The position numbers were made by a program, and so were the translations under genes. This document shows positions 4,641-48,773 of a stretch of DNA of 48,773 bases, in pieces. Every line of letters starts with the position of its first letter. Position 1 is the first letter of the stretch. Below the pieces are notes generated by a model, which was given only the letters and a program-made list of their open reading frames with translations, did not search any database and was not told the DNA's origin. This DNA is from a virus. The DNA is taken from the IMG/VR virus record IMGVR_UViG_3300026319_000008, positions 1 through 48,773 of that record. The stretch is one strand, 5' to 3'.

Positions 4641-4955
4641 CTAGTTAGCAGTGAGAAAATTCGTTGCAGTGCATATCCACGCGCTACCGCTCCAACGCTC
4701 TGTGAATCCACTGACGGCACAGGTGGAAGCGGGTAGCGTACCCGTAGGACCAATAGGACCAGCTGGTCCTGATGCACCAACGGGACCGACAGGACCTGCG
4801 GGACCGACAATGCCTGTGATCGTGGCACAGATGCAAGCGGTCGTTGTGAGTTGCAACGCCACGTTCGGTCCCACGCAGATTGGACACTTCATGTTCTGTG
4901 CGACTGCGCCCGATACGAACATCAAGCTCCACAGGATGATCCACAGCGTGCGCAT
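4641..4955 (-). CDS. Secreted collagen-like protein with signal peptide
   Basis: A 104-residue protein. Residues 1-19 form a Sec signal peptide (MRTLWIILWSLMFVSGAVA) with an AVA|Q cleavage site. The mature part has two CxxC/CxC pairs, then nine Gly-X-Y triplets at about 48-74 (GPAGPVGPVGASGPAGPIG), and two more Cys near the C-terminus, six in all. Collagen-like triplets trimerise phage fibre stalks. The start at 4955 is preferred over an ATG at 4982: it has AGGA upstream, and the 4982 ATG lies inside the -10 box of the gene's own promoter. With a promoter upstream it looks like a moron-type cargo gene. Export of a collagen-like phage protein is unusual. Confidence 0.8.
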   Translation of the reverse strand: MRTLWIILWSLMFVSGAVAQNMKCPICVGPNVALQLTTTACICATITGIVGPAGPVGPVGASGPAGPIGPTGTLPASTCAVSGFTERWSGSAWICTATNFLTAN

Positions 4956-18472: not shown

Positions 18473-18489
18473 CCTTCCTCCCAACCTCG

Positions 18490-18521: not shown

Positions 18522-18532
18522 GGAGCCCCTGC

Positions 18533-32931: not shown

Positions 32932-33353
32932 GATTTCCTCGTGATGTAAAATGGCAGGGCCTGCCCCTGTGGGTCTTCGAACTTTGCACCGAGCCACTTG
33001 AGCCAGCGGATCGCTTTGGCATTAGTGATCAATGTGTGACCGACAATGATTGGATAGCGCTCAAGTGCGGCTTCGAGCGCCCGCTGTGAGTGACGCACGA
33101 ATATAAAGATGTGCTCTTGCATGTGCTTGGTGGTGTACATCCATAAGTACGCGCGATCGCTTAGGAGCGTTGGTGCAATCAGCCCCCACACGCAGATGAT
33201 CTTTGTGTCCTGCATGCAGAGCCAGACGTATTCGGAGTTGCGCAGCGCACGATGCATCGTGTCCTGATCAATTGGCGCAGCCGTAGCCAGATGCTCCTCG
33301 AACATCATGTCGTATGCAACAAGACCAGAGATTGGTTGCATCACGAAGGTCAT
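32916..33353 (-). CDS. GNAT-like protein in the gp13 position (145 aa)
   Basis: Segments typical of acetyltransferase-fold phage proteins: SEYVWLCMQDTKIICVWGLI, AYLWMYTTKHMQEH, GHTLITNAKAIRWLKWLGAK and FEDPQGQALPFYI, the last two being the usual C-terminal motif (NxxAIRWLxxLGF). T7 gp13 occupies the same place and is needed for assembly of the internal core. Whether it acetylates anything is unknown. Coupled to the upstream gene by an ATGA overlap. Confidence 0.75.
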   Translation of the reverse strand: MTFVMQPISGLVAYDMMFEEHLATAAPIDQDTMHRALRNSEYVWLCMQDTKIICVWGLIAPTLLSDRAYLWMYTTKHMQEHIFIFVRHSQRALEAALERYPIIVGHTLITNAKAIRWLKWLGAKFEDPQGQALPFYITRKSWPQV

Positions 33354-36199
33354 CGCGGTCGGGCTCCGTTGTCACCGATGTCGAAGCTGGGGATCACGCC
33401 TAGGATGGTGGCAGGGTAGGGGTTGGATTGTTGGATGCAATATTGGCCGGGGATAGTATAGGTTGGATCAAGAAAGGTTCCAGCGTCGCCATCCACTAGG
33501 TCTGTTACGATTTGACTAGCTTGCCCAACTAGCATCGTTGAGACATTTCCACGTATAAGGTCTTTCATTGGTGTCAGACTGTTGAAGTCGGAGCCGATCG
33601 AGAGTCCTAGGGTCTCTGCTACACGAACGTCTACAGAGTTGATCTTCTTAACCTTGCCCTGCACGGTTGGATCGCCAATCTCAAGTGGAAGGGTCTGAAG
33701 GTCGCAGTTGTAGGCAATGCCTACGGTGACTTTGCTTGCGGGTGTAGCGAGTGTGAATGTGCCCGCAGTGTTCATAACGAATGGTGGGACGATTACTCCA
33801 TCAGCGAGTCCAGTCACCGTGCGCCCCGCGAGGAATTCGGCTCCACTAAAGTTAGTAGCTGGTGCACCGACGTAGCCGATGCCACAATCCACACACCAAG
33901 CGTCAGCGACGCCAGTCGTGAATACACGTTCAGAAATCCGTTCGATGTACTTAAGGAAGTGACCATCGATCAGGCGCTCCACCACGGTGTATACTGCATC
34001 GACTTCGCCCGCGAGGTCAGTGTTTTCAACCACGGTACACACCGATTTGAAGTTCCCTGCGGTAGTCGAGTGGGCCCAGCCGATGAACTCTTGTTCTTTA
34101 AGGAAGGTCAGTGTGAGCATCACACCATCGTCGCGAATAGCCCAAACTACCTTGAATGGCTCCTCGGCCCATGCCCATTCATCGACAGTGTGTCCATAGA
34201 AGAGGTGGGATGCAATAGCCGAGATATCGGTACCAGTGAACACATTGGCGTAGATATTATAGGCGCTGTCACGCACAATCGACCCCTTAGCTTGCACATA
34301 CAGCACGTCGAAGTTTGCGATGATAGGTGGAACGTTGGATATTCCATTGAAGGATTGCGCATTCGCGACCAGCGCCGTTGGGGATATGGGTGAGCCTTGA
34401 CCATTGCCGCCATTGATGATCCATGAGTTGCGGTCGGTGAACATTAACAGACCGGAGGTCTGTGAGACCATGGAGCGAATGGTATTGAGTTGACCTGAAA
34501 CGAGGGTGCCAGTGATTGAATCATCAGGCTGCGTGATCGACGAGACATCGAAGTTGAAGAACGAGCCGGGGCGAGACATGTAGAAGGTCTGTGGGTTGGC
34601 TAATGGCGCAGCGAGGATCAAACGCTGCTGGAAGAAGCTTGGGACGGTTGGGTTGCCCGTAGCAGTGGCTGAAACGATAGCAAATGCTGTGGCAGCGCCT
34701 GAGGAGAATACAACAGTCGGGACTGTGGTGTAACCTGTTCCGGGATTTAGAATTTCAACTAGGCCCACACCCCAAACGAGGTTTGTAGTCGCGCCAGTGC
34801 CACTACCAGAAGTCGATATCTGAGGTACAGGGTTGGATGGAGTTGATCCGAAGTGAATTTGCCCCGGATTTGAGCCGGGCACTGCGATATTGTAGAAGGT
34901 AGCTACAGCGCCACCACCGCCAACTGTAGCAACTACAAGTGTCACGTTATCAGCGAAGGTGACTGTGTCATTGATTGCATAGCCAGTGCCACCAGCACCG
35001 ACCGTTGGGGTACCATGTACTTGAAGAACAGCAGCAGCAGATGCGACTATAGTGAATGGTGAGCCGGTAAATGTAACCGTAGGTACTGTGGTGTAAGTTC
35101 CAGACGCGGTCACAGTTACACTAGCAATACCTTGCCCAAGAAATGGATTCTTTGCGATCGGTGGGGTTTGAGAGAAGTCCGCTGCGATGTTAGAGTCAAC
35201 AAACTCAGTTGCTTCGGTGGAACCAATGTAACCATAGATGGTACCAACAGCTACAACACCGAAGTAGCTGACATCGGCCTTGTAGACGTTGTATGCAACT
35301 GCTCCGGCTGCTGCTGACCAAGCGATCTTATTGGACCCAGCAACGGTGCGTAAGTCCTGAATAGAACTAAGACTACCGGGGCTGGATTGATTTGACTCTT
35401 GTCCACTACCATCAACTGAAGTGACTACATAGGAATAGAACACTGTCCCAGCAGCAAGCGTCGTGGTGATTGTTGGAGCAGCTGGAACAGCAGCAGAGGA
35501 GCCAAAGACGATTGGAAGTAAGGTCCAGTTGTTAGCAGCGACTAGCGTCAACACATATGGTGGGTGCTCAGGATGACACAAGATCATCTGGTTGACGTTC
35601 TGAGCGAATTTGATGTCATGGAGTTGATCGCTGGTGTACGGCGAGTTGATAGTGTACACACGAGCAGCAGTACCGCCGGTAGTATATGCGCTATAGCCGG
35701 TGGAGTTAATATTTGCGTCGTCAATGATTCGCCCAAGCGCCATGTTGATACTGTCGAAGGTATTCATATTGAAGTATCGGTCGTTAAGTTGGGTCATACC
35801 TCCCACACCTTCGACAAATATCCAATTGCCTACACCCCATGGTGGAAATCCGGAGACGCTTAAGGTCGCAGGATTTGCCTGCGTGACTCCGGTGATGGGG
35901 AATGCAGGCTCAAGCACTGGAGTGCTATTGAAGTAAAAACGAATGTAGCCGTGACCAAACTCAAGCACGTAGCCGACTGCGAAGCTGGCTTGAAAGGGGA
36001 TCAGCCGAACGTTCTCGTTAGAGTTGAAGCATTGAAGGATATATTTCGTCCCCGGCCGCGTGCTAGCGCCACCACGATAGTCAACAAAGAAGTTCTCTAG
36101 CAGCGCAGCGCCAGAGCGGTACTTCTGCATATCCACGCGCGCGAAGAGCTTGGGGCTCCATTCGCCACTGTTGAAGCTGGCTTGGATTACAGAAGTCAC
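33350..36199 (-). CDS. Tail tube nozzle protein, gp12-like (949 aa), GTG start
   Basis: The N-terminus SFNSGEWSPKLFARVDMQKY and GAALLENFFVDYRGGASTRP is the family signature of T7 gp12-like tail tubular protein B. LLRMVSQTSGLLMFTDRNSW-type segments and YVQAKGSIVRD follow in the second half. Residues about 370-520 contain tandem GxGYxxxPTV and GGTGYAINDTVTF beta units, an insertion shared with the neighbouring gp11-like gene. The GTG at 36199 gives a GTGA overlap with the upstream stop. An ATG at 36226 would reach into the upstream gene. Confidence 0.88.
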   Translation of the reverse strand: MTSVIQASFNSGEWSPKLFARVDMQKYRSGAALLENFFVDYRGGASTRPGTKYILQCFNSNENVRLIPFQASFAVGYVLEFGHGYIRFYFNSTPVLEPAFPITGVTQANPATLSVSGFPPWGVGNWIFVEGVGGMTQLNDRYFNMNTFDSINMALGRIIDDANINSTGYSAYTTGGTAARVYTINSPYTSDQLHDIKFAQNVNQMILCHPEHPPYVLTLVAANNWTLLPIVFGSSAAVPAAPTITTTLAAGTVFYSYVVTSVDGSGQESNQSSPGSLSSIQDLRTVAGSNKIAWSAAAGAVAYNVYKADVSYFGVVAVGTIYGYIGSTEATEFVDSNIAADFSQTPPIAKNPFLGQGIASVTVTASGTYTTVPTVTFTGSPFTIVASAAAVLQVHGTPTVGAGGTGYAINDTVTFADNVTLVVATVGGGGAVATFYNIAVPGSNPGQIHFGSTPSNPVPQISTSGSGTGATTNLVWGVGLVEILNPGTGYTTVPTVVFSSGAATAFAIVSATATGNPTVPSFFQQRLILAAPLANPQTFYMSRPGSFFNFDVSSITQPDDSITGTLVSGQLNTIRSMVSQTSGLLMFTDRNSWIINGGNGQGSPISPTALVANAQSFNGISNVPPIIANFDVLYVQAKGSIVRDSAYNIYANVFTGTDISAIASHLFYGHTVDEWAWAEEPFKVVWAIRDDGVMLTLTFLKEQEFIGWAHSTTAGNFKSVCTVVENTDLAGEVDAVYTVVERLIDGHFLKYIERISERVFTTGVADAWCVDCGIGYVGAPATNFSGAEFLAGRTVTGLADGVIVPPFVMNTAGTFTLATPASKVTVGIAYNCDLQTLPLEIGDPTVQGKVKKINSVDVRVAETLGLSIGSDFNSLTPMKDLIRGNVSTMLVGQASQIVTDLVDGDAGTFLDPTYTIPGQYCIQQSNPYPATILGVIPSFDIGDNGARPR

Positions 36200-37290
36200 A
36201 TATAGCTCGGGAAGACCCCGCCCCAATCGAATCCAGTGTAAGGCCCAGAAATGTAGCCCTCGGCATAAGCGATGCCACGAACGCGAATCCAGTCGGGGGT
36301 AACGTCGTTGATAGTGAGGCCTTCATTGCCATCGATCGATCGCGCGATTTCGATTGCAGTGTTGACCTGTTTGATGAGGTCATTAGCGACGTTACGGTCG
36401 CCACGCAGGGCCATCGCAAGGCCGGAGGCAAGTAGGTTGATCCACGCGGTTTGAAACAATGTGTCCATAACGTTGGGGTCAGTGACCTGCTTCACGTAGC
36501 CAAGTGTTGCGAACTCTTGATTCGTCAGGACTACTCGTTGAGAAATCTGGCTCGGGCCGAAGGTAAGCGTGAACGAGGCACCTGTGCCAGAGCCGGTGGT
36601 TGTGTCTTGAGCAATGGTACCGATTTGACGGGCGAAGTAGCTACCACCCTGTGGGACCGCGGAGCCATTGATGACCCCAACAACGCTAACCGTTGCGATA
36701 GCTGATCCGACGCCCAAAGTAGCGACACGGAGTTGAACGGGAGCCCCAATCGGTGCGTTAGTTGTAGGGCCGAGAGGTAAAGTGATGATGTCACCCACAG
36801 CGTATCCAATACCTCCAGACACGATTGCTGCTGCGATGACGGGGATGAATTCATCGATCTGGACCTTGTATTTGACCGGAGGGCCTTGCCAGAAGGCAGA
36901 GGCGCCACCAGTCACTGCGGTAGTGATGGGGATGTTGCCGGAGAAGCCGGTTTGATTAGCGGGGATGACGTAACATGCACGAAGGCAATCGATGGGGTAT
37001 TGATATTCATATGTCCATGGCGGTGCGGGCTGACCCGGCTGCCATAGTGTCGTTGCAGCGGATGTGTTCTCAGGGGTGCCGGGGACACTAGTGATGTATG
37101 TAAGGTTAGCGGTCTTAAGTGCGCAGTCCCACGGAGCCATTCGCAGCAAATCATCTCGCATGTTATTGAGGATCAGGTTTGCTTGAATGGCTTCGTTGGT
37201 GGAGCTAGTAGCGAGTTCGGCATCAGTCACTGTCGTGCGAGTGCCGATAGTTTGTAGCGCTCGGTTAACGATGTCAGTGACCGATGTCAT
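36196..37290 (-). CDS. Tail tube adaptor, gp11-like (364 aa), with beta-domain insertion
   Basis: Ring between portal and tail nozzle. DIVNRALQTIGTRTTVTDAE, NLILNNMRDDLLRMAPWDCA and YEYQYPIDCLRACYVIPANQ are typical of T7 gp11-like proteins, and QTAWINLLASGLAMALRGDR near the end completes the helical core. Between them, residues about 140-260 form a beta insertion with GGIGYAVGDIITLPLGP and TGSGTGASFTLTFGP, resembling the one in the gp12-like protein. Most gp11 proteins are near 200 residues; the insertion explains the extra length. Confidence 0.85.
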   Translation of the reverse strand: MTSVTDIVNRALQTIGTRTTVTDAELATSSTNEAIQANLILNNMRDDLLRMAPWDCALKTANLTYITSVPGTPENTSAATTLWQPGQPAPPWTYEYQYPIDCLRACYVIPANQTGFSGNIPITTAVTGGASAFWQGPPVKYKVQIDEFIPVIAAAIVSGGIGYAVGDIITLPLGPTTNAPIGAPVQLRVATLGVGSAIATVSVVGVINGSAVPQGGSYFARQIGTIAQDTTTGSGTGASFTLTFGPSQISQRVVLTNQEFATLGYVKQVTDPNVMDTLFQTAWINLLASGLAMALRGDRNVANDLIKQVNTAIEIARSIDGNEGLTINDVTPDWIRVRGIAYAEGYISGPYTGFDWGGVFPSYM

Positions 37291-37482
37291 TTAGTGCTTC
37301 CCTTGCGTACCGCAGCAACCTAGATTGTCCTCATGCAATCCGGGGCCTTGTTTCATTTGCCCCTTTGGCCCCATGGGTGTGGAGTAAGGAAGCGGCTTGA
37401 CCTCCATGTGTCCGCCGTTGGTAGCGCGAGGACGTTCGCCAGCGCCAGTGCTTTCATACTCGGAAAGGATATCATTGCTCAT
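37291..37482 (-). CDS. Small late protein ending in QGKH (63 aa)
   Basis: MSNDILSEYESTGAGERPRA and a Gly/Pro/Met-rich C-terminus ending CCGTQGKH. GGAG precedes the ATG, which overlaps the upstream stop (TAATG). Low-complexity and probably disordered. The QGKH end is also seen in the 68-aa protein at 37715. No function assigned. Confidence 0.6.
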   Translation of the reverse strand: MSNDILSEYESTGAGERPRATNGGHMEVKPLPYSTPMGPKGQMKQGPGLHEDNLGCCGTQGKH

Positions 37483-37703
37483 TAGACTTTCTCCGTGCTG
37501 GGCTCATCAGCCGAGGTGATCGGCGAGGTGCTGAGTTCAGGGGGAGTGTCAACCTTGGCGGCTTTCTCCGGCGGCGAGTTGGCCTTAGCGTATACGGCTT
37601 CAAGTTCATCCACTGCCGCGGCAGCGTACTTAGAGAACTTGGGCCCAGCGGCTGCGGCTTGATGAATGGTCGAGAGAAGTGCATTAACGTGGTTCCAGTC
37701 CAT
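37482..37703 (-). CDS. Small late protein (73 aa)
   Basis: MDWNHVNALLSTIHQAAAAG forms helices (KYAAAAVDELEAVYAK) followed by a Pro/Ser/Thr-rich acidic tail. AAGGAG lies eight bases upstream. No family recognised; part of a run of four small genes between the fibre gene and the tail tube genes. Confidence 0.6.
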   Translation of the reverse strand: MDWNHVNALLSTIHQAAAAGPKFSKYAAAAVDELEAVYAKANSPPEKAAKVDTPPELSTSPITSADEPSTEKV

Positions 37704-37714
37704 AGCTTTGCTCC

Positions 37715-37921
37715 TTACTTGTGTTTGCCTTGTGATCCGGTGGGATGGTTGGTGGTTCCTTGCATCGGTGCTTCAAGTCCACGGCCCTCGTAGAGGGGAA
37801 GGCTGGTGCCACGGACTTGATGGGCACCGATGTCCGAGACGGCAGGGACCGAGACTGCATTGGGTGCTGCTTCACGCTTAATACCGGTCATTCTAGACGT
37901 AGCTGCTTGACCTTGTTTCAT
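37715..37921 (-). CDS. Small late protein ending in QGKHK (68 aa)
   Basis: MKQGQAATSRMTGIKREAAP; Gly/Pro/Ser-rich, probably disordered, ending PTGSQGKHK much like the 63-aa gene two places on. A TGATG overlap couples it to the upstream gene, and GGAG precedes it. Function unknown. Confidence 0.55.
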   Translation of the reverse strand: MKQGQAATSRMTGIKREAAPNAVSVPAVSDIGAHQVRGTSLPLYEGRGLEAPMQGTTNHPTGSQGKHK

Positions 37922-38316
37922 CAGAAGCTCCTTTTGAAGGTTAGTTCCTTAGTGTGCTTGTAACGATTCTCTTCATCCCCAGCCATCTGTCGACGAATCT
38001 TTTCGATCGCACCGCCTTCAGTGTTGTGTTCCTTTAGGATTTGGCGATATCGGTCGTCGAGGCGCTCGATCTCATCGAGGATGTGCTGGGGTGGACGCTG
38101 TCCATGTTCTTCGTACATGTACTTGATGTCATGTACGTCGTGAAAGTAATTCGCGAACCGACGCAGCGACTCGGGGACTTCAGTCTCAGCATCGCGATAG
38201 AACTTCAGTAGTTCACTGTTCTGCTGACGAAGCTGCGTTAGCTCACGCGCGATGCGATGCAAGAGGTCCCGTTCAGTAACGGAGTCGTCAAGCTTGTAAT
38301 CAGTTTCTCTGCTCAT
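37921..38316 (-). CDS. Helical late protein (131 aa)
   Basis: MSRETDYKLDDSVTERDLLH, then an all-helical charged protein: ARELTQLRQQNSELLKFYRD, HDIKYMYEEHGQRPPQHILD, EIERLDDRYRQILKE. Probably a coiled-coil oligomer. Coupled to the fibre gene by an ATGA overlap. No family recognised. Confidence 0.65.
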   Translation of the reverse strand: MSRETDYKLDDSVTERDLLHRIARELTQLRQQNSELLKFYRDAETEVPESLRRFANYFHDVHDIKYMYEEHGQRPPQHILDEIERLDDRYRQILKEHNTEGGAIEKIRRQMAGDEENRYKHTKELTFKRSF

Positions 38317-39890
38317 TTTACATCATTCATCATGGCCGCGAAACAGAAACTTGAAGTGCGGCAGGAGAAGGAAAGGATGTCGATTGCGTTAGCGGTGGTG
38401 GTGAGGGTTGGGGTTACACCACCAGCGAACTTAAATGTCGAACTCCAAACTGTGGTGCGGCTGCCAGTGCCATCTTGAATGAAGGTGACGGTGCCAGATT
38501 TACCTACGACCACATTAGAGATAGTCATAGTGGTGATGTTACCAGTCAATGTCACCTTAGCATCACGGAAGGTGGACATGTCGAAGGTGGTTGTGGTGCC
38601 GTAAGTGACAGTGACTTCGGGTGGCCACACCACGCTTGGGGTGACGAGTTTGGTGGCTGAGGTGCCAGCGTACATGTCTGGAACGGTCGCAAGTGCATAT
38701 TCACCAACGACGCCGTTGTTGTTGTAAATGATGTTGGTGTTACTACCACTGGTGATGGTGGTTACACCAACAGTGATGTTGTTGTTACTTAAACCACTGT
38801 CTGGCAGGGCCTTGATGATCCAATCGATCGTAGCCATGGGATTGACGACTGAAAATGGTGTAGCGGTACCACCTTGTGCGTTGCCAGTGAAGGCTGCAGA
38901 GATGCCAGTCACGGCAGCGTTGATAGTGACGTTGCCTTGATAGATAGCATTAGGGCCATCGTTGGCGCTGCCTGCTACAGGAGGATTAATACCAGCAAAG
39001 GAATTATTGGTGTGGGTGTGACCCGGATCGGTAATGCCGACAGAGCCCGTTGGTGTATATGCGGGTAAGTTGATAGTAGCAAGACCTCGCTGCTGCGAAC
39101 CGCCAAGTGCACCAAGCGCATCAGGGTTTACACCGTAGTAGGTAGAGGTCAAGGTGCCTGCAATCGATCCGGACATGTTGTCACGACCGATCAGCGCACG
39201 GCCCATCAGGTTCGGAACGTTGAATGTGGTCGTGCCGTTGCCATTGCCCCATGGGAAGAAGCTAGCTGAGGTGGTTGTGGAAGCGATGGCATTCGTGGAC
39301 GCGGTGATCGTGGTACCGGATTTAGATAGCACGGTTGTACCCGCGTTGAAGCAGGCTGAGGCTTCAATAGGTGCACCTATTGGTAGGCGGTTTGAGATGT
39401 CAACGGTAGCAGCGAAGGTAGCAGTGCCACTGGTGCAGAAGATTGATTGGGTATAAACAAGAGTGGTGAATAACTGTGGATAACTGGCACGGACGATTGC
39501 TTGGCCATAAGCAAGCAGGTAGTTGTTTGGAACCGTCGCACCAGTCCACGGAAGGATGGTACCGACAACAGCGGAGCCGCCGCCAGCGGAGCAGGTAATG
39601 ATGCCCGTGGCCACCACGATGGTGCAGTCACCAGACATAGTGAAGCCACCAAAGGACCCAGAGTTGTTGTATTGAATTTGGCCACTGGTGCCACCGGGTG
39701 TACCGCCGCCCCCACCATTGTTATGCACGAAGCGGGTGTTGGCACAGGCATTGGAGATATCACCCGCTGGGCGATCTGAGCAGGTGGTATTCTGCGCCTC
39801 AGCGTCCAGTGACCACAAACCTACTATAGACAGCACTGGAAATGCTAATAGCGCTGTGACCGACAATGCAAGGAAGAGTTTCTTAAACAT
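38313..39890 (-). CDS. Tail-collar-type fibre protein with Sec signal peptide (525 aa)
   Basis: Residues 1-32 are a signal peptide (MFKKLFLALSVTALLAFPVL, then GLWSLDAEA) with an AEA|Q cleavage site. The mature chain has a Gly-rich linker (NNGGGGGTPGG) and a phage tail collar domain: VVGTILPWTGATVPNNYLLA, ASYPQLFTTL, FNVPNLMGRALIGRDNMSGS and GITDPGHTHTNN. A beta-rich C-terminal part follows. Eight Cys are present. Collar domains usually sit in cytoplasmic tail fibres; a cleavable signal on one is odd and is shared by eight neighbouring genes. Confidence 0.85.
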   Translation of the reverse strand: MFKKLFLALSVTALLAFPVLSIVGLWSLDAEAQNTTCSDRPAGDISNACANTRFVHNNGGGGGTPGGTSGQIQYNNSGSFGGFTMSGDCTIVVATGIITCSAGGGSAVVGTILPWTGATVPNNYLLAYGQAIVRASYPQLFTTLVYTQSIFCTSGTATFAATVDISNRLPIGAPIEASACFNAGTTVLSKSGTTITASTNAIASTTTSASFFPWGNGNGTTTFNVPNLMGRALIGRDNMSGSIAGTLTSTYYGVNPDALGALGGSQQRGLATINLPAYTPTGSVGITDPGHTHTNNSFAGINPPVAGSANDGPNAIYQGNVTINAAVTGISAAFTGNAQGGTATPFSVVNPMATIDWIIKALPDSGLSNNNITVGVTTITSGSNTNIIYNNNGVVGEYALATVPDMYAGTSATKLVTPSVVWPPEVTVTYGTTTTFDMSTFRDAKVTLTGNITTMTISNVVVGKSGTVTFIQDGTGSRTTVWSSTFKFAGGVTPTLTTTANAIDILSFSCRTSSFCFAAMMNDVK

Positions 39891-40275
39891 TGCTTTCCAT
39901 CACGGTTAGCGGATTGGTGATACCAGCACCAGTAACAGCGAGAGCCTGCCATGCACCAGCGCATTCACCAGTGATGGTCAATGCCCCACCGTTACCATAG
40001 ACACGAAAAGTGCCACCGAGCGCTGCGTTGGTAGGGGTCAATGCATGGTTCGAAGGTTGAGTTGGCGCGGTGCCAAGAACATTCTGAACAAATGCGGGAC
40101 CGACAAAGATGTCGTTAGGGCCGGGGTTATGAAAGATGATTGATTGGCGACTAGGGTTGGCTTGCGCAACGACAAGCACTGCGTCCTCACGCACGTTGTT
40201 ATAGCCATAGATTTTTCCACCGGACGCGGAGGAAAAGGCTAGTGGTGATCCCGGTCCGGTGGAGATAAGTCCCAT
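39883..40275 (-). CDS. Beta-rich virion-type protein without signal peptide (130 aa)
   Basis: FSSASGGKIYGYNNVREDAV, ANPSRQSIIFHNPGPNDIFV and GGTFRVYGNGGALTITGECA: a compact beta sandwich typical of small phage decoration or head-fibre proteins. No signal peptide and a single Cys, unlike its neighbours. The start overlaps the upstream TAA (TAATG); its stop overlaps the fibre start by 8 bp. Confidence 0.65.
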   Translation of the reverse strand: MGLISTGPGSPLAFSSASGGKIYGYNNVREDAVLVVAQANPSRQSIIFHNPGPNDIFVGPAFVQNVLGTAPTQPSNHALTPTNAALGGTFRVYGNGGALTITGECAGAWQALAVTGAGITNPLTVMESNV

Positions 40276-40811
40276 TATGCCCTCCGCTCAGCGCCACGCC
40301 CAATGGGCTGCGTTGCAATGAGCGCCTCGAGCTTTGCAAGGCGCTCTTTCAGCGCGTCGTATTCTTCCTTCGGCACGCTGGTGTTGGGGATGTTGGCTTG
40401 CGTTTCGAATGCCTTCATCATGGACGCGAAGAACGCTTGTTCCTGCACGTTCATTCCGCCGTTGGCCGGTAGAGATTCGATGGGGTTGTCCCACTTGCTG
40501 CGCATCCCATCAGAGATGGCTTGAGCCGCATCGTTGAGGGGTTCCATCTCGGGTGTGGGCACGCCGTTGAAGATGTAGTCCTGTGGATACGCTGTGCTGT
40601 GAGCATTAGCGACGATGATCTCACCGGGGTAGTTGCAGTCGCCCGACTCAATGGGATTGAGCAACATTGGAACCTTAAAGGTCTTTCGAATGGTTCGGCC
40701 GCTGTCACGGTTAGTCTCTTTGCTCTCCCACTCGACTTCGGTGCCGTCAGGTAGGGTTTCGACGTTAATGTAATGTGGGTTGGTAAGTCTCCAGCGGGCT
40801 GCTTCGGTCAT
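40275..40811 (-). CDS. Conserved phage protein (178 aa)
   Basis: MTEAARWRLTNPHYINVETL, WESKETNRDSGRTIRKTFKV, DCNYPGEIIVANAHSTAYPQ and PTPEMEPLNDAAQAISDGMR are segments I recall from a conserved phage family of unknown function. The C-terminal half is helical (KERLAKLEALIA). There is no signal peptide. AAAGGAG lies eight bases upstream, the strongest ribosome site in this stretch, suggesting high expression. Confidence 0.7.
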   Translation of the reverse strand: MTEAARWRLTNPHYINVETLPDGTEVEWESKETNRDSGRTIRKTFKVPMLLNPIESGDCNYPGEIIVANAHSTAYPQDYIFNGVPTPEMEPLNDAAQAISDGMRSKWDNPIESLPANGGMNVQEQAFFASMMKAFETQANIPNTSVPKEEYDALKERLAKLEALIATQPIGRGAERRA

Positions 40812-40833
40812 TGTAGGCTCCTTTGGTTGTAAG

Positions 40834-41682
40834 TTACATTCCCCATTTGTTCTTTAGATAGGTGTCGAGTGCTGCAACAGCGGTTGCATCTTTGAAGACG
40901 TTGTAGAGTCCCCATTCGCTGATGAGCCCAGCATAATTGCCATTGAAGAAGTTGGTATCAAACTGCGAACCGCCCATCGAAAGATAGCCGGGGGAAACGA
41001 AGTTGGCGACGATACTTGCTGATGTTGCTGCGACAGACCCATTGATGTAAAGAGTTCTAGTGCCATCGGATTTCAGAGTGAAGATCACTCGAATTTGAGC
41101 ACCATAAGTGACAGAGGTGCCGAGTGTTACTGCATTACGGTCGTAGGTTATATTGGCAGCGGCACCGAGGTTGATTATACCGAAGGAGCCAACGTTGTTG
41201 AAAGCACTGGTCGCACCTGATGCTGTGTAAGAGATCAACGGACCATTGGCGTGGAAGCCGTTGCTATCCGCATCCAATGTTCCAACAGAGAAGAACGTTA
41301 ATTCGTTTCCAGTGCCAAACGCGGCCGTGGGATAGTTGAGTGATGTTAAAGTAGCTGAGCCACTAAATGCTAAAGTTGGCCGTGCATTGAACCCGGCCGC
41401 GACGTACTGAGGCCCAATAGACCCCGCGCCAAAAGAATAAGCATGCGAACTTTGATCGATTGCTGTTTGCACAGCACCGGATGAAAGAGTGAATGAGCTA
41501 GCAATACATGCGTCAATCCAAGCAACCAAGCTAGTCGTTGATGGTATAGTGAATTGGCTGCAAAGCGAGGATGTTGGTGGTGGATAAACACAGAAGCCTG
41601 GGAGACACGCGCCGAATTGTGCGGAGGCCTGTTGCGTCAGCGTAAGGAATATAACAGCGGCTAAAGTACGAATACAACGCAT
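40834..41682 (-). CDS. Exported concanavalin A/LamG-like lectin (282 aa)
   Basis: Signal peptide MRCIRTLAAVIFLTLTQQAS with an ASA|Q site. Four Cys lie in the first part of the mature chain (GACLPGFC; SSLC; DAC). The rest is a LamG/ConA-type beta sandwich: YGAQIRVIFTLKSDGTRTLY, INGSVAATSAS, GLISEWGLYNVFKDATAVAA, ending YLKNKWGM, the usual end of such glycan-binding modules. Likely binds a cell-surface or extracellular carbohydrate. Start overlaps the upstream stop (TAATG). Confidence 0.8.
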   Translation of the reverse strand: MRCIRTLAAVIFLTLTQQASAQFGACLPGFCVYPPPTSSLCSQFTIPSTTSLVAWIDACIASSFTLSSGAVQTAIDQSSHAYSFGAGSIGPQYVAAGFNARPTLAFSGSATLTSLNYPTAAFGTGNELTFFSVGTLDADSNGFHANGPLISYTASGATSAFNNVGSFGIINLGAAANITYDRNAVTLGTSVTYGAQIRVIFTLKSDGTRTLYINGSVAATSASIVANFVSPGYLSMGGSQFDTNFFNGNYAGLISEWGLYNVFKDATAVAALDTYLKNKWGM

Positions 41683-43133
41683 TATGGAACTCCGACGGCA
41701 GTCATGAACGTCCGAGTTCTATTATAGAAGTTCAGAGCATCGGTGGCACTAAGCGAACTACCGATGCTTATCATCGCTTGTTGCCACGGACCACCTGCGA
41801 TAGTACCCCCATTATTACCAGCAAGGGCGCTATAGTTGTTGCTTTGTATGGTGAAAGATGCAGTTCCATCAGTGATGACGTTGGAACCGTTCTTGTAACC
41901 GTCACTAGAATTCGCCCCGGAGCGGTTTGCAATCCAGTGGCCAATGGAATTAGCAGATGCAACACCGCCTACGGCTTGCGAATTAATACGGAAGAAGGCA
42001 ACGTTAGAGCTGTGGAACGGAGAGGCGAACGTACCTTGCCCAAGGCCGTTGTAGACACCTATCGCTGGGAAGCCGCTGGAAGCATTGTTAACTGCCCAAA
42101 ATGAAACGTGGGCCAAGTTGGTTGTGTACTGTGGTGAAGGCGCAGTAGCTGCATTGAAGCCTGTGTCGATGTAAACAGTAGAACTGCCATCTACGCCTGT
42201 GTAGCCACGATCAACGGTGAAGGCTGGTGAACCATTCGCGATGCCGTTGTAGCTAGTGGATACTAAATTCAGCAACGCCGTTGTAGCGTTCTGCGTTGCA
42301 AGAATGTACAGAACATCAAACTTTGACCAGAGGCTATCGGTCACTAAGCCACAAATATATGCGTCGTAAGCATTTTGATGCGTAGCATCTAGCCCTGAGG
42401 TTCGCAGGAGGAATGTTTGGCTTTGCGAACATGTGCCGAAGGCAGGGGCAGTGGTCCAAATAACCAAAGCGATTTTAGGATTGCTAGTGGTTGGGCTGAT
42501 GGTGCTGGAAAGAGTACCGCCGTTACCATGAAGGGCCTGCGAGGCATGAACGCCCCAAAGATTCGCACCACAGGCCGATGAGAAGTCGTTGGCCATGTTG
42601 GAGAGCGAAGTCGAGACGTTAACGGTTCGACTTGCTGCGGCGAGGGCTAGCTGCTTGTTGTTGTAGCCTTGACTGACGCTGGTTGTGCCGGTAGTTGTGG
42701 CAAGGACGGATTGATAGCCGATCAGGCTATAGACCTCAATAGTAACGCCATCGACCGCAGTCGCGAACGTGGCGACTATGTTAGCAGTGGTTCCAGATGG
42801 ATTGGCAACATACCAAATCTCAGAATTGCTGTTCGTGGCTCCTGCCGTATTGCTGACGGCACGAAGCATTGTAATACCGCCGATTGTCATCCCTGTAAGT
42901 TGGGCGGTTCCAGCAGCAGTGCTATCGTCCCAATTGATCGATACGACAGAGATACGATTTGCGTTTGTTCCGCCTGTGCCTTGTGCGGTGAAGGTTATGA
43001 CAGTGCCAGAAGTGGTAGAACAAGCGTTGCTGATCGGCGCAGCGAAGGCGTCGGCGAGTGGAAACCAACCAGCCGAAGTTGGTGTGGCTGCGAGAACAAG
43101 GCAGATTAATAGGCGGATTAGTTTATTAAACAC
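41682..43133 (-). CDS. Exported beta-sandwich fibre-like protein (483 aa), GTG start
   Basis: Signal peptide from MFNKLIRLLICLVLAATPTS with cleavage at TSA|G or later at AFA|A. The first half is beta-rich (VVSINWDDSTAAGTAQLTGM). The second contains GLVTDSLWSKFDVLYILATQ, STSYNGIANGSPAFTVDRGY and TGVDGSSTVYIDTGF, a module I recall from phage tail and receptor-binding proteins. Four Cys in the mature chain. The start is a GTG with AGG upstream. Coupled to the LamG-like gene by TAATG. Confidence 0.75.
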   Translation of the reverse strand: MFNKLIRLLICLVLAATPTSAGWFPLADAFAAPISNACSTTSGTVITFTAQGTGGTNANRISVVSINWDDSTAAGTAQLTGMTIGGITMLRAVSNTAGATNSNSEIWYVANPSGTTANIVATFATAVDGVTIEVYSLIGYQSVLATTTGTTSVSQGYNNKQLALAAASRTVNVSTSLSNMANDFSSACGANLWGVHASQALHGNGGTLSSTISPTTSNPKIALVIWTTAPAFGTCSQSQTFLLRTSGLDATHQNAYDAYICGLVTDSLWSKFDVLYILATQNATTALLNLVSTSYNGIANGSPAFTVDRGYTGVDGSSTVYIDTGFNAATAPSPQYTTNLAHVSFWAVNNASSGFPAIGVYNGLGQGTFASPFHSSNVAFFRINSQAVGGVASANSIGHWIANRSGANSSDGYKNGSNVITDGTASFTIQSNNYSALAGNNGGTIAGGPWQQAMISIGSSLSATDALNFYNRTRTFMTAVGVP

Positions 43134-43138
43134 GGGCT

Positions 43139-43888
43139 TTACCTGCTATTGTACTCAGTGATCATAATGCAGCCGTTACCACCTTGACCACCTGCGGAGC
43201 CAGATGCAGTGCCAACTGTTGAAGCACCGCCACCTCCGGCTCCACAGATACCACCGGCATTACCCGTAACCGTTGAAGTGGAGCCTTGTACTGCGATTGG
43301 AGCACCACCGTATGGTCCTTCGGCACCCTTTCCGGCTGCTGTTGGGGCGGTTGTAATTGAGGCGCCTTCGCCGCCAGAGCCACCATTGCCATTGACCTTG
43401 AAGTCTCCAGTACCGCCCGACGCCAAGCCACCGCCACCACCAGCACCGTCGGCATTCACAGCAGCGCCACCTCCACCAGAGCCGCCCTTACTAACGCATA
43501 AAGCCCCCAATGAGGTATCGTTACCAGCAGTGCCAGAACCGCCAGCAGTTGCTCCCGCATTTGCTGCTGCTGTGTTGGTTGTTGCTTGTGAAGCGCCGAT
43601 CTGTGCAGCTGTGAGGCGCACGCGGACATAGCTACCTGCGCCTCCGCCCCCGCCGGAAGATACGCCTGTAGCGCTGGATGTTGATCCACCACCACCACCA
43701 CCTTGACCAATGCACTCGGCTACCGCGTACAGCAGATAGGCATTGGGTGTATAGGTACTGTTCGCGCTGGTGACAAAGTATTGAGTAGTGACACTGCCAA
43801 AGAGCGTCGTTGCACCACCGTAGATACTTTGAGCGGAAGCTGAGGTGGATAGGCATAGCGCTAGAAGTAGAGCTAAGGTTTTTTTCAT
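43139..43888 (-). CDS. Exported glycine-rich fibre-tip-like protein (249 aa)
   Basis: Signal peptide MKKTLALLLALCLSTSASA|Q, then a strand-forming start and long Gly-rich stretches (ECIGQGGGGGGSTSS; KGGSGGGGAAVNADGAGGGG) broken by YVRVRLTAAQIGAS. This is the layout of phage glycine-rich tail domains, where polyglycine helices form the receptor-binding tip. Four Cys. It ends CIMITEYNSR. The ribosome site is weak. Confidence 0.8.
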   Translation of the reverse strand: MKKTLALLLALCLSTSASAQSIYGGATTLFGSVTTQYFVTSANSTYTPNAYLLYAVAECIGQGGGGGGSTSSATGVSSGGGGGAGSYVRVRLTAAQIGASQATTNTAAANAGATAGGSGTAGNDTSLGALCVSKGGSGGGGAAVNADGAGGGGGLASGGTGDFKVNGNGGSGGEGASITTAPTAAGKGAEGPYGGAPIAVQGSTSTVTGNAGGICGAGGGGASTVGTASGSAGGQGGNGCIMITEYNSR

Positions 43889-43889
43889 G

Positions 43890-44609
43890 TTACTTCATCA
43901 TTCCGTGGATCATCGCCACAGTGCTAAGAGTGAGAGTGGCACAAGCTGTTGAACTAATAGCCGCTGTCATTCCAACGGAATAAACGGCTGGCGGACCCGG
44001 CGCGTAGTTGACGCCGCCAATGGCACCAGCGCCTATCGGTATGCACTCAACCATATTGCCAGAAGCGACTCCTGCGGTAGTGGCTCCATTGCTAGGAGCA
44101 GTAGTCGAATTGAAAACCATTAACCAACAGGCAGAAGTGCAGTTGGCATAAACGGCGTAGAGACTCCCCGCGGAAGCTTTCAATACCAGACTAGATACCG
44201 CCGAACCGCCTACGACTGGTGTGACACCAGCGGTGGCGTTTCCACTAGGGGATAAGACAACTGGTAGAGAAGCGGTATCGGCTGCTGCGCCTAGCTGGTC
44301 AGAAGCAATGGTCATCGGCACCGAAGCAGATTTAGTGGTCTGGCCGAGAGTGACGATACCGGGGCTATCGGTCGCAAGGGCAGTTCGCTGTGTGCCCGCG
44401 GTCATCACGCCAGAGCCAGTAGCGATCGCTGTGGCGTTGACTTGGTTCAGGTTGAAGTTATATTGACAGAAGCCATCCCCACCAGACGACATCGACATCG
44501 AGATGGTAGCGCCTGTTCCATCTTTGATGGAGAGTGGATTGGTGCACGCTGCAAATGCGCCCCCGCTGAACAGGGAAAGTGCAACGGACAGAATTAATTT
44601 CCTAAACAT
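43890..44609 (-). CDS. Exported beta-rich protein (239 aa)
   Basis: Signal peptide MFRKLILSVALSLFSGGAFA|A. The mature chain opens with a short Cys pair (ACTNPL and GFCQYNFNLNQV), then a linker with GQTTKSASVPMTIASDQ, and a C-terminal beta domain (GGSAVSSLVLKASAGSLYAV; NCTSACWLMVFN; VECIPI). Six Cys. The linker and C-terminal segments are common in phage structural proteins. The start is placed at the ATG with AGGGG seven bases upstream; an ATG six bases earlier is too close to it. Confidence 0.75.
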   Translation of the reverse strand: MFRKLILSVALSLFSGGAFAACTNPLSIKDGTGATISMSMSSGGDGFCQYNFNLNQVNATAIATGSGVMTAGTQRTALATDSPGIVTLGQTTKSASVPMTIASDQLGAAADTASLPVVLSPSGNATAGVTPVVGGSAVSSLVLKASAGSLYAVYANCTSACWLMVFNSTTAPSNGATTAGVASGNMVECIPIGAGAIGGVNYAPGPPAVYSVGMTAAISSTACATLTLSTVAMIHGMMK

Positions 44610-44620
44610 CTGCATTCCCC

Positions 44621-44791
44621 TTAGAGGAGGTATTGAGAGTTACAGGCCTGTGAGAAGTCGAGGGAATTGGAGCAAGCGCCGCCAGCACCACTGGAACCGG
44701 ATAGACCATCCGTGACTCCATGAAGGAGTTGTGCTGTGGCAGCGGTAGTAACTAAGACAAAGATTGTGAGGGCAATGATGCAGCGGATCAA
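44621..44791 (-). CDS. Small exported protein (56 aa), TTG start
   Basis: Signal peptide MIRCIIALTIFVLVTTAATA|Q, then only about 35 residues with two Cys (GGACSNSLDFSQACNSQYLL). The TTG start overlaps the upstream TGA as TTGA and gives a normal-length signal peptide; a GTG at 44806 would add five residues. The mature peptide is too short for a domain, so it could be a disulfide-looped peptide or an anchor. Confidence 0.6.
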   Translation of the reverse strand: MIRCIIALTIFVLVTTAATAQLLHGVTDGLSGSSGAGGACSNSLDFSQACNSQYLL

Positions 44792-45219
44792 TTCGTATAC
44801 CCCCACGCTGTAACTGCGCCCACTGTGCCAGCACCACCGGCGGGGGTGTTAACAACGATGCTGGTGTTGACTGCGGATGATGTGATGCATCCAGGGAAGG
44901 CGATGCCAAAGATGCCTTGACCGGTGGCGACAAAGGCGTATTCGAAGTTCATGGTGCCGCTAACGGTGCCGGTGACGGTGATGGCACCTAGGGTTGCGGC
45001 GGTGGTTCCGGCGGAAGAGACAACGAATCCACAGATGTAAGTTCGTTTACCAGCGACGCCAGTTAGGGTTGCAGATGATGTGCCGGTGGTGAAGGTTGCG
45101 GAGTTGGTCAGGTTGTTGATCTGCCCACCCTGTGGGAAGGGGGCAGTGGTTACGACTTGAGCCAGCGCGGCGCTGGCTAGCGCCAAGAGAAGGATTAGCG
45201 CCGCGCTGAGCTTATGCAT
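44788..45219 (-). CDS. Exported beta-sandwich protein (143 aa)
   Basis: Signal peptide MHKLSAALILLLALASAALA|Q. The mature part is one beta domain (SATLTGVAGKRTYICGFVVS; GTVSGTMNFEYAFVATGQGI; SSAVNTSIVVNTPAG) with one Cys pair that would bridge YICGF and PGCITS. It resembles small fibre-tip modules in metagenomic phages. AAGGA lies nine bases before the chosen ATG; the longer upstream frame overlaps the previous gene and lacks a signal peptide. Confidence 0.75.
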   Translation of the reverse strand: MHKLSAALILLLALASAALAQVVTTAPFPQGGQINNLTNSATFTTGTSSATLTGVAGKRTYICGFVVSSAGTTAATLGAITVTGTVSGTMNFEYAFVATGQGIFGIAFPGCITSSAVNTSIVVNTPAGGAGTVGAVTAWGYTN

Positions 45220-45230
45220 GGGCGATGTCC

Positions 45231-45683
45231 TTATGAGACCGAGGAGCAGATGTAAGAAATCTGCGAACTCGGGTTGGAGGTTTGGGTGATAGTCAGTGCG
45301 GTTGTGCTGGTGGCCCATGACATCGCGGCCAAGGGACCAGTTTTCCACGAGACAATGCAGTTAGGCGCGGTCACATATGCACGGCCGAAGGTCACGACGC
45401 AAGAGGTAGAAGCGGTGGTGCCCGCGGTGATGGTGCCAGCGAAGTCTGTACCGACAAGGGTAGGTGAGCCGCCAGTGATACAAGCAGAGAGTACTGGGAT
45501 AGGTCCAGCGGCGCCGGTGCTAAGAATATGCCCCGGGAAGTAGACGTTGTTGGTAGTGTCAACGCCGAAGGCACCAGAGGCATCCTGTGAGAGTTGGATA
45601 GCTTTGGTGATAGATTGAGCAAAGGCTAGCCCGCCAGCAAGGGCAAGGATCAGTAACGCTGGAAAGATATGTCGTCGCATCAT
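45231..45683 (-). CDS. Exported fibre C-terminal-type protein (150 aa)
   Basis: Signal peptide MMRRHIFPALLILALAGGLA then FA|Q. The mature chain contains CVVTFGRAYVTAPNCIVSWK and TALTITQTSNPSSQISYICS, the C-terminal module of many phage tail fibres, and has four Cys. A short YFPGHILSTG segment precedes it, as in fibre shafts. Start overlaps the upstream stop as ATGA. Confidence 0.78.
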   Translation of the reverse strand: MMRRHIFPALLILALAGGLAFAQSITKAIQLSQDASGAFGVDTTNNVYFPGHILSTGAAGPIPVLSACITGGSPTLVGTDFAGTITAGTTASTSCVVTFGRAYVTAPNCIVSWKTGPLAAMSWATSTTALTITQTSNPSSQISYICSSVS

Positions 45684-46147
45684 TGGATCCTATACCAGAT
45701 TTTGGAGGAAGCTTTATACTGCCAAGTGGGGAAGGAGGCGTTGGCAGTGAGGGTTTGAGTAGTGAAGGTGGTAGTGAGTGTGTCGCCGGTGCCAGCGGTT
45801 ACGGTGACCAAGGTGGTCAGAGTGGTGTCAGTGCATAGGCGTATGAAGGCACCATCAGCAGGTGCAGCAACGAGTGTGACGGCCCAAGTGGTTGGGGCAG
45901 TGCCGACCCAACAAAGGGTACCAGCAGTCGCGGTTGAGGTTGCAGCGCCAGAGCCGGATTTAGTGAAGATTGGCTCCGAGCCGCGGACGGTATTGATACC
46001 GATGTACGAACCGGGTCCACCGGGGCCTTGGCCGACAACCCAAACTTCGTTACCGGAGATGCCGGTCTGGACAACAGGTTGAGCAAGCACGGCGAGTGGG
46101 ATTATAAGTCCCACTGCCAATGCGGCCCATAAGAGCCTTTTGTTCAT
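45680..46147 (-). CDS. Exported fibre-like protein (155 aa)
   Basis: Signal peptide MNKRLLWAALAVGLIIPLAV then LA|Q. The mature part, GNEVWVVGQGPGGPGSYIGI, AGTLCWVGTAPTTWAVTLVA, FIRLCTDTTLTTLVTVTAGT and KIWYRIQ, is a beta-sandwich module common at fibre ends. Two Cys. GGGAG lies seven bases before the ATG. First gene of the exported array after the capsid genes. Confidence 0.78.
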   Translation of the reverse strand: MNKRLLWAALAVGLIIPLAVLAQPVVQTGISGNEVWVVGQGPGGPGSYIGINTVRGSEPIFTKSGSGAATSTATAGTLCWVGTAPTTWAVTLVAAPADGAFIRLCTDTTLTTLVTVTAGTGDTLTTTFTTQTLTANASFPTWQYKASSKIWYRIQ

Positions 46148-46158
46148 TTCTGATCTCC

Positions 46159-46698
46159 CTAGTTCGCAACCGTTATGCCAGCCGGGTAGTTAGAATAGAG
46201 TCCGGTTGGGCCAACGATTTGATCATCACGATCGAGCACGATCTGGGCTTCGAGGGCACCAGCGGTGTGTGTGCCGACGGTGATGTAGCGCAGGCGCAAG
46301 AAGCGAGGAACGACTTGGCCTGCTGCGGGGCGTGGGACATCAATGTTCGCAAGTTGCATACCGGCGACCAAGGTGGCTTCGACTACGGCGGCCGAGAGCC
46401 ACATGATGGTGTAGGAGCCAGGCAGGCCTGAGCCGTTGTCCGGGGCGCCGGAGAGTTCCAACTGAAGTGACGTGCCCGAGGCAAAGGCCGTGGTGACCAA
46501 TGCCGAGAGCTTCATTGTTGGGTCGTCACCGACGCCAATGTCACGGGCACCACCGCCGAGAGCGGAGGATGGAATGCCTGAAATCACACCAAGGTCGATG
46601 ATATTCGATGCGACCTGAGTGCCGGTGGTGGGGCTATCTAAGTTGGCTGCTGCGCCGCCCAAGCCACCTGAGAAGGTGAGTAGGTTGTCAAGAATCAT
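46159..46698 (-). CDS. Bbp16-like virion protein (179 aa)
   Basis: MILDNLLTFSGGLGGAAANL, DLGVISGIPSSALGGGARDI, LQLELSGAPDNGSG and AGMQLANIDVPRPAAGQVVP with RFLRLRYITVGTHTAGALEA match the Bbp16 family found next to the major capsid protein in Bordetella phage BPP-1 and relatives, where it is a capsid cement or decoration protein. No signal peptide and no Cys. GGAG lies six bases upstream. Expected in many copies per capsid. Confidence 0.85.
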   Translation of the reverse strand: MILDNLLTFSGGLGGAAANLDSPTTGTQVASNIIDLGVISGIPSSALGGGARDIGVGDDPTMKLSALVTTAFASGTSLQLELSGAPDNGSGLPGSYTIMWLSAAVVEATLVAGMQLANIDVPRPAAGQVVPRFLRLRYITVGTHTAGALEAQIVLDRDDQIVGPTGLYSNYPAGITVAN

Positions 46699-46710: not shown

Positions 46711-47754
46711 TCAAGTTACTTGGGCTTCGTTGTTGAGGACAGCATCGCAGGTACGAACCGGGATGCTACGGAAGGTGGTGACCACTTTACCGTTGAACTC
46801 TTCAAGGCGAAGCAAGACGTTGGTCTTATTCATCGCTTGAAGGTCAAGGTAGGTGCGGATAATGCGGTTGCAGTAGATGTGCACTCGGCCCATGTTTGCG
46901 CGGACCTCGGGGGTGTCTGAGGTTTGGATCGCGGTCGCTTGGGAAGGGGCAGTGGGCAGGCGATAGAGTCCGCGGACGATCAAGTTGATTAAGTTCGCGG
47001 CGCTGACGCCGGTCAGTTGAGTCACATCGATGTTCGCGATGCGGGCGGTGTATCGCCAATCGCGAAGGGTGAGGCCGACTTCCCACTTGAAGTGGTCACG
47101 GTAGGCTTGGAAGGTGTTGCCAGAGGCATCCTGCACGGGCCACTCACCCATGTCACGATGCTGGAGGCCGGTGATCTTGCCCTTCGGGAAGATACCGTGG
47201 ATGGTGTCCGAACCCCACGTGACAATCCATAGGGAGGTGTTGGTGTTGGAAGTGCCGCCCGCGTCAAGGACGTTTGCTGCGGTCTGTGAATTTGTGGCGT
47301 TGATGGTAGAGTAACGCGGGGCGAGGCCTGTGAAGCGCTCGGGGTTGATGTGCTGGTTGCCATAGATGAATGCTGCGGCGACCTGTTGCGACATACCTTC
47401 GAGGAACGCACGGACTTCGGAGAGGCGGAACTCAGCGGTGTTACCGTTGAGGTCAGCGATGTCTTTGTCGATCACGGCGTAGGTTTCGAGGTTGCCAACG
47501 GTGTCGACGATTTGTGCGGTGGTTGACTTGGCGTTTGGGACGCCTAAGTTGAGCAGGCGCCAAGTGGCCTGCGGGAGCCCAGTGCGGACGGTGGTTTTGT
47601 GTCCAGTGGGCAGGTTGCCTTCCATGACGAGGATGTCATCAAGGATTTCGTTGGTTTGGGAGAGGAGTTCGATGATTGAGGCTACACGATAACCGTCATC
47701 CATCCTCTTCGCCCAATCGGCGTAGGTTAGCGCCAGTGAGCCAATGGTGGCCAT
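46711..47754 (-). CDS. Major capsid protein (347 aa)
   Basis: LALTYADWAKRMDDGYRVAS, LLSQTNEILDDILVMEGNLP, TGHKTTVRTGLPQATWRLLN and AFIYGNQHINPERFTGLAPR are hallmark segments of the HK97-fold capsid family of BPP-1 (Bbp17) and related phages. Full length, with no visible prohead protease site. It lies between scaffold and Bbp16-like genes. GGAG about 10 nt before the ATG forms part of a hairpin arm (47768-47835), so translation could be tuned by that structure. Confidence 0.92.
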   Translation of the reverse strand: MATIGSLALTYADWAKRMDDGYRVASIIELLSQTNEILDDILVMEGNLPTGHKTTVRTGLPQATWRLLNLGVPNAKSTTAQIVDTVGNLETYAVIDKDIADLNGNTAEFRLSEVRAFLEGMSQQVAAAFIYGNQHINPERFTGLAPRYSTINATNSQTAANVLDAGGTSNTNTSLWIVTWGSDTIHGIFPKGKITGLQHRDMGEWPVQDASGNTFQAYRDHFKWEVGLTLRDWRYTARIANIDVTQLTGVSAANLINLIVRGLYRLPTAPSQATAIQTSDTPEVRANMGRVHIYCNRIIRTYLDLQAMNKTNVLLRLEEFNGKVVTTFRSIPVRTCDAVLNNEAQVT

Positions 47755-48602: not shown

Positions 48603-48773
48603 TGGATTCCCTCATGGCTTGAATGTAGTAGTCGGGGCAGTGGATCATAATGTCGGCGAGGAGGCTGAGGCCAACATTGCGCTGACCCTCGGCGAAGGCG
48701 GATTGGAGTGGGTCGCCTGCGAAGGTCGAGGCGAAGATGTGGCAGGAGCCAAGTAGATCCCACATCCATTGAC
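48433..48773 (-). CDS. Bbp19-like phage protein, possibly partial at the window edge
   Basis: MWDLLGSCHIFASTFAGDPL, QSAFAEGQRNVGLSLLADIM and HCPDYYIQAMRESNER match the Bbp19-like domain carried between portal and scaffold in BPP-1-like phages. The frame stays open to the right edge, so the ATG at 48765 may not be the true start. The C-terminal 55 residues are acidic and disordered and are encoded in another frame over the scaffold start, a long overlap. Role in virion assembly is presumed from position. Confidence 0.75.
   Translation of the reverse strand, partial: QWMWDLLGSCHIFASTFAGDPLQSAFAEGQRNVGLSLLADIMIHCPDYYIQAMRESNERHISNDASTNRRSADEGRDGDPDGREGRNTDDSDPDYNPYDGTNDGTGRSGWDH

Follow-up and report, generated by a model that had tools for sequence, protein, structure and literature searches.

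Podoviruses of the eps15/BPP-1 type, such as eps15, BPP-1, BcepC6B and Jess A (Uetakevirus, Rauchvirus and Ryyoungvirus), share the late gene order protease, capsid, cement, tail tubular proteins A and B, and internal virion proteins. In eps15, BPP-1, Jess A, BcepC6B, HU1 and others the gap between the cement and tail tubular A genes holds one or two small genes lacking signals, and the fibers or spikes are encoded elsewhere and have ordinary non-signal N-termini. The IMG/VR record IMGVR_UViG_3300026319_000008, a linear DNA of 48,773 bases analyzed over its full length and referred to here as the window, is by gene content a fragment of an eps15/BPP-1-like podovirus. Its major capsid, cement, tail tubular A and B and internal virion proteins are homologous to those of this group and encoded in the identical order, a protease and an endolysin are also present, and the capsid protein shares 47-55% identity with its counterparts in Bordetella BPP-1, Caulobacter Jess A, phiV10 and Salmonella 66FD. 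The window differs in the cement-tail tubular A gap, which contains an array of nine genes with predicted signal peptides (sp9 to sp1, Table 1). The evidence described below indicates that a clade of uncultured, mostly soil-type bacterial viruses tags nearly all of its spike and fiber proteins for export, a fate not expected of phage tailspikes.

The array had been noticed in a preliminary description as nine minus-strand open reading frames (ORFs); all of them are present with the ends given there, except that the gene at 44788 starts at 45219 (MHKLS...) and not at 45348. N-termini were evaluated with a rule of our own for signal peptidase I (SPase I) substrates, consisting of a net positive n-region, an uncharged hydrophobic 10-mer core, the -3/-1 rule and absence of Pro at +1; Gln at +1 was not scored. 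The Sec/SPase I features (n-region, hydrophobic core and A-x-A site) were recognized in eight of the nine proteins. The exception, sp6 (44621-44806), was rejected solely on charge, a Glu canceling the n-region to a net 0, and its signal is plausible, so that the earlier claim of nine SPase I-type signals holds. The claim that seven of the nine cleave before Gln agrees with the predicted sites (AEA↓Q, ASA↓Q, ASA↓Q, ATA↓Q, ALA↓Q, AFA↓Q and VLA↓Q, the arrow marking cleavage). A lipobox with Cys at +1 was not found in the array proteins of the window, except for an ambiguous, weakly lipobox-like FAAC in sp5. Elsewhere in the window the rule accepted a holin-like gene (23056-23397) and a fiber-like gene (4641-4982), making 8/15 positives in the array versus 2/44 in the rest (Fisher p = 1e-4). 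Taken alone the rule has little stringency, since it also passes 6-23% of N-termini whose first 45 residues had been shuffled among themselves, 35 of 451 background ORFs and 4 of 131 core homologs. The case therefore rests on conservation in relatives and on Cys parity. Gln at +1 occurs in 118 of 170 strong signals across the phages (69%) and is invariant in sp8 across 21 relatives; the corresponding values are 31% in Terriglobia (n = 48 scored) and 16% in Telmatospirillum (n = 19 scored), and the residue is not a plain copy of the habit of either as a host. Internal translation restart past the signal was rejected as well, an ATG with a Shine-Dalgarno sequence being found in 0 of 186 cases.

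A capsid scan of IMG/VR yielded 80 loci with capsid identities of 86-93%; several are near-identical (e.g. L004/L005 and L021/L024), and ORF calls were mechanical. Syntenic arrays, whose search in IMG/VR had been suggested in the preliminary description, were found throughout: at least one signal gene is present in 69 of the 71 loci with a readable interval, and at least two in 58, so that the array is a property of a virus clade and not, as described initially, of one phage. The interval spans 2.7-9.3 kb, and its order is cement, sp9-type gene or a 211-amino acid alternative, sp8- or sp7-type gene, variable genes, g178, g130, sp1, g131, g68, g63 and tail tubular A. When families were built by clustering on the mature sequence only, the four large array families were signal-positive in 150 of 155 members (48/50, 41/43, 35/36 and 26/26), as opposed to 1 of 154 in six interleaved families (0/44, 0/28, 0/26, 0/22, 0/17 and 1/17), the exceptions being mostly wrong starts or frames or signals overlooked by the rule. 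Judged by this clustering the signal peptides are family properties, and the observation is stronger than had been claimed. Signal regions are also under purifying selection, looser than that on the mature parts, as estimated from ratios of nonsynonymous to synonymous substitution (dN/dS) of about 0.32 for signal regions and 0.17 for mature parts with synonymous sites near saturation. The array is present in a relative with 79% capsid identity on a contig of a Terriglobia metagenome-assembled genome (MAG), and absent from capsid relatives at 39-56% identity in Acetobacteraceae, Pseudomonas, Agrobacterium and Gastranaerophilales and from alphaproteobacterial prophages with 65-67% capsid DNA identity. 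Queries of the sp7, sp8 and sp9 types had no match in cultured phages; the sp7-type alignment was conserved too little for an IMG/VR scan. The middle cassette is highly variable in number and type of genes. At L045 the array is down to a remnant signal-peptide ORF (7984-8202) that has HNH-like genes close by and represents a deletion that arose naturally within the clade.

Cys residues were counted in mature signal-bearing proteins of at least 120 amino acids, with the non-signal proteins of the same intervals as comparison. The number was even in 176, odd in 13 and zero in 13 of the former, versus 47, 58 and 45, respectively, of the latter; the Fisher value of 4e-20 comes from related sequences with no tree correction and is hence no clean probability. 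Within the four main families counts shift almost only by two (2, 4, 6, 8, 10, 12, 14, 16), of the 40 families with signals 31 have mostly even and five mostly odd counts, and all nine window proteins have an even count. This excess is independent support for an oxidizing compartment, which would be the periplasm, where the paired residues may form disulfides. In addition, the LamG-type mature start QF(G/T)xCLPxxC follows a Sec signal in sp2 of the window and a twin-Arg signal in L029, L034 and L038, with the motif, moderate hydrophobic core and A-x-A-type site expected for twin-arginine translocation (Tat). Further Tat-like starts occur in L013, L034 and L038, and Pfam TAT_signal matches L038:6687-7550 with an E value of 0.005, below the cut-off. 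The route is swapped and the mature start kept, and we therefore argue that export is the function of these N-termini. The idea that fiber building blocks are exported is in this way supported by the relatives, by Cys parity and by Sec/Tat exchange. From these sequence comparisons we consider export well supported, and equally that the signals are real and conserved, that the mature Cys are paired and that several of the proteins are fibers or spikes.

The proteins in the last slot of the array (sp1) are, by their modules, real fibers or spikes. They keep the signal and the motif NxxCxxRPxGDxxNxCAxTxFV and exchange the C-terminus, which is of the collar, beta-helix or pectate-lyase-like type, the last two forming the ends of the spikes of L033, L080, L068 and L074. 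A signal-bearing 592-amino acid protein of L023 ends in Peptidase_S74, the tailspike chaperone. In the signal-less 927-amino acid fiber of L054 the repeat is present without Cys, and conventional collar- or tip-fiber homologs, taken from eight other phages, lack a signal and contain 1-3 Cys. Of the modules named in the preliminary description the tail collar is clear (PF07484, E 1e-11), but LamG (PF13385) and the glycine-rich module (PF21722) are weak and fall below Pfam cut-offs. Likewise, the picture of fibers divided among separate exported genes applies to the short members with one domain but not to the sp1-slot proteins, which are full-length. The short members sp6 to sp9 are linked to fibers by fold or motif only. 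The sp9 model (predicted local distance difference test score 83) resembles T4 gp10-type baseplate proteins, CBA120 TSP4 and the Pa223 capsid spike (best E about 1e-3), as well as many predicted phage proteins including fibers and depolymerases, with modest template modeling scores of 0.4-0.5. This match supports a fold type, with no function claimed, and sp9 may be an adaptor with a T4 gp10/TSP4-like fold. The fold search with sp8 gave weak spike-tip matches.

Outside the array, eight near-complete genomes (the window, G003-G008 and G795) yielded no fiber gene lacking a signal, nor did these and G794 yield a separate conventional fiber or spike gene in the stretch from the large late protein to the lysis genes. 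By elimination, the receptor-binding proteins of most such phages would therefore be exported. A second signal-bearing fiber locus lies upstream of TerL in the window (sp10, the tenth gene, beside the terminase, missed initially), in G005 (541 and 118 amino acids) and in G794 (652 and 449 amino acids); G791, whose array is a remnant, has at this place a 524-amino acid ORF with 12 Cys, cut near the contig end.

Table 1. Features of the window and of other loci (L numbers). Signal peptides and cleavage sites (↓) are predicted; Cys numbers refer to mature proteins.
Feature	Locus	Coordinates	Strand	Description
Major capsid protein	window	46711..47754	-	phrog_212
Cement-type capsid protein	window	46159..46698	-	phrog_427; upstream border of array
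sp9	window	45680..46147	-	signal peptide MNKRLLWAALAVGLIIPLAVLA↓Q, beta-rich fiber-type domain; 155 amino acids; 2 Cys; first array gene
sp8	window	45231..45683	-	signal peptide ending AFA↓Q, C-terminal beta-sandwich; 150 amino acids; 4 Cys
sp7	window	44788..45219	-	signal peptide ending ALA↓Q, short beta domain; 143 amino acids; 2 Cys
sp6	window	44621..44806	-	plausible signal peptide ending ATA↓Q; 61 amino acids; 2 Cys
sp5	window	43890..44615	-	signal peptide ending AFA↓A, followed by 219 amino acids; 6 Cys
sp4	window	43139..43888	-	signal peptide ending ASA↓Q, glycine-rich domain; weak PF21722; phrog_863, E 4e-19; 4 Cys
sp3	window	41682..43133	-	signal peptide TSA↓G or AFA↓A, region related to phrog_18498; 4 Cys
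sp2	window	40834..41682	-	Sec signal ending ASA↓Q, LamG-like domain, weak PF13385; mature start QFGACLPGFC
g178	window	40275..40811	-	conserved non-exported neighbor; signal peptides 0/44 in family
g130	window	39883..40275	-	conserved non-exported neighbor; signal peptides 1/17 in family
sp1	window	38313..39890	-	signal AEA↓Q, Cys-paired fiber-repeat motif NTTCSDRPAGDISNACANTRFV, tail collar PF07484, fiber-tip C-terminus; 525 amino acids; 8 Cys
g131, g68, g73, g63	window	37291..38316	-	small non-exported genes, array to tail tubular A
Tail tubular protein A	window	36196..37290	-	phrog_394; downstream border of array
Tail tubular protein B	window	33350..36226	-	phrog_376
sp10	window	4641..4955 (listed ORF 4641-4982)	-	putative exported fiber-like gene upstream of TerL; MRTLWIILWSLMFVSGAVA↓Q, AVA↓Q; collagen-like G-x-y stretch; 6 Cys
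Twin-Arg (Tat) signals on LamG-type proteins	L034	4714-5589
	L038	9640-10491
	L029	9879-10733
Wzy_C-like genes in arrays (examples)	L018	5273-6256
	L042	4045-5013
	L070	10121-11098
Signal-bearing fiber genes of ppBdUSDA122-1	L184	5308-6756, 6792-9389

Among the window genes scanned a family A polymerase, a UvrD-type helicase and a uracil glycosylase were seen, and no integrase. A portal gene was not seen in the window either, although TerL and the protease are present, and the record is therefore probably not fully complete, short by about 2 kb (ends 1-1424 and 48603-48773). Descent of g63 from BPP-1 bbp15 was considered and rejected because the two gave no alignment.

We propose, with a confidence that is about even, that these phages export their receptor-binding proteins, which become disulfide-bonded in the periplasm and attach to virions upon lysis. 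The nine genes and that at 4641-4955 would encode receptor-binding fiber or spike subunits, each with a cleavable signal peptide (Sec, or Tat in some relatives). The subunits would be secreted from the cytoplasm, processed at A-x-A↓Q and folded, disulfide-bonded, in the oxidizing periplasm, the heads and tail tubes meanwhile being assembled in the cytoplasm, and lysis would then bring the finished spikes to the particles for docking on the tail. Late docking is chemically plausible because P22 tailspikes join heads in vitro. The preliminary description had offered three fates, adhesins in the periplasm or on the surface, fibers joining the virion after export or lysis, and a coat on the infected cell, and had chosen none; the data favor, short of proof, the joining of virions, because the modules in the last slot are those of true spikes and because the near-complete genomes show no recognizable receptor-binding protein without a signal outside the array. 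Several points weigh against this proposal. We know of no precedent for in vivo docking of this kind in tailed phages, exported spikes are expected to dilute at lysis, and five to nine different subunits are many for one podovirus tail. Linear records may miss a few kb, as the window does its portal gene. A few arrays contain signal-less fiber-like genes, namely that for a 519-amino acid protein in G008 (L055), the 927-amino acid fiber of L054 and a 1258-amino acid protein with GH5 in L066, and cytoplasmic fibers are therefore possible in the clade. The L066 protein (15253-19029) has two stretches matching GH5 cellulase (E 9e-61) and is perhaps a depolymerase spike.

The array proteins might instead be exported and never be part of virions, binding surface glycans or receptors in the infected cell's envelope, or outside it after lysis, and in this manner shield receptors, prevent superinfection or stop progeny from sticking to debris and sister cells. 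The short members, with a signal, a single tip-like domain and no recognized tail-attachment domain, would suit such a role, as would the variability of the middle cassette and the Wzy_C-like genes for polytopic O-antigen ligases or polymerases in about nine arrays (best E 8e-9), which recall the serotype conversion for which eps15-like phages are known and fit surface remodeling. We nevertheless think it unlikely, given the full-length virion-type spikes in the sp1 slot, the lack of another recognizable receptor-binding protein in most near-complete genomes and the fact that a Sec or Tat signal alone does not lead across the outer membrane. The two roles could also be divided, sp1 and perhaps sp9 being the virion spike docked after lysis and the variable middle genes encoding exported surface-active proteins (masking proteins, depolymerases, Wzy glycan remodeling). 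It is true that regularity is greatest in sp1 and in the two genes that open the array and that the middle, besides varying in number and type, includes Wzy_C, LamG, glycine-rich and beta-helix proteins, but signal style, Gln at +1 and Cys parity are common to all, and position does not split two classes; we judge such a division improbable.

Two further explanations concern the N-termini themselves. The hydrophobic N-terminal helix seen in the sp9 and sp8 models could be a retained anchor, tethering the proteins to the inner membrane for assembly or serving as a tail plug. Tat/Sec exchange, the even-Cys excess and the frequency of Gln at +1 point instead to cleavage and an oxidizing compartment, which leaves this explanation little credence. 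That Ala/Leu/Gly-rich hydrophobic N-termini were by chance misread as signals would agree with the proportion of shuffled N-termini passing the rule; the separation of signal-positive and signal-negative families and the Cys parity refute this for the clade as a whole, and we assign it a negligible probability.

Close relatives were found in two MAGs, one of Terriglobia and one of Telmatospirillum, on contigs that are short or consist of phage sequence only. Neither was accepted as the host; where short DNA matches were checked, across 784 genomes from both classes, no CRISPR-like repeats (clustered regularly interspaced short palindromic repeats) accompanied them.

No report of exported tail fibers was found in the literature searched, which mostly excluded subscription journals, and the novelty holds against this literature and the cultured phages. 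A parallel is the Bradyrhizobium siphophage ppBdUSDA122-1 (OP596612), in which two neighboring fiber genes (482 and 865 amino acids, with 6 and 18 Cys) pass the signal test. It differs in being a temperate, long-tailed siphophage unrelated to the podovirus clade. Its particles arise spontaneously in culture (PMC10127595), and this culturable phage offers a direct test system. Completion of tailed-phage virions outside the cytoplasm, by Sec/Tat secretion, periplasmic disulfides and docking at lysis, may then have arisen independently in at least two phage types, the podovirus clade and the Bradyrhizobium siphophage, a suggestion that we make tentatively and with somewhat less than even confidence. 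If true, it would add an extracytoplasmic step to tailed-phage assembly, which is taught as wholly cytoplasmic, and explain the folding of fibers with many Cys; virions from one infected cell could receive spikes made in a different one, and annotators should be warned that a signal peptide is compatible with a virion protein. Filamentous phage pIII, a receptor-binding protein with a Sec signal and periplasmic disulfides that is membrane-anchored and joins the extruding inovirus, is an analogy with no homology claimed; tailed virions assemble in the cytoplasm. Superinfection-exclusion proteins of the T5 Llp type are also phage-encoded, exported and active at receptors, but they are lipoproteins, and the array proteins of the window have no lipobox save the ambiguous one of sp5. 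With the fibers and tailspikes of other phages the clade shares the C-terminal modules PF07484, PF13229/PF12708 and Peptidase_S74 and the fiber repeat, here Cys-bearing; its proteins differ in mostly having a predicted signal in place of the tail-attachment N-terminus, and paired Cys.

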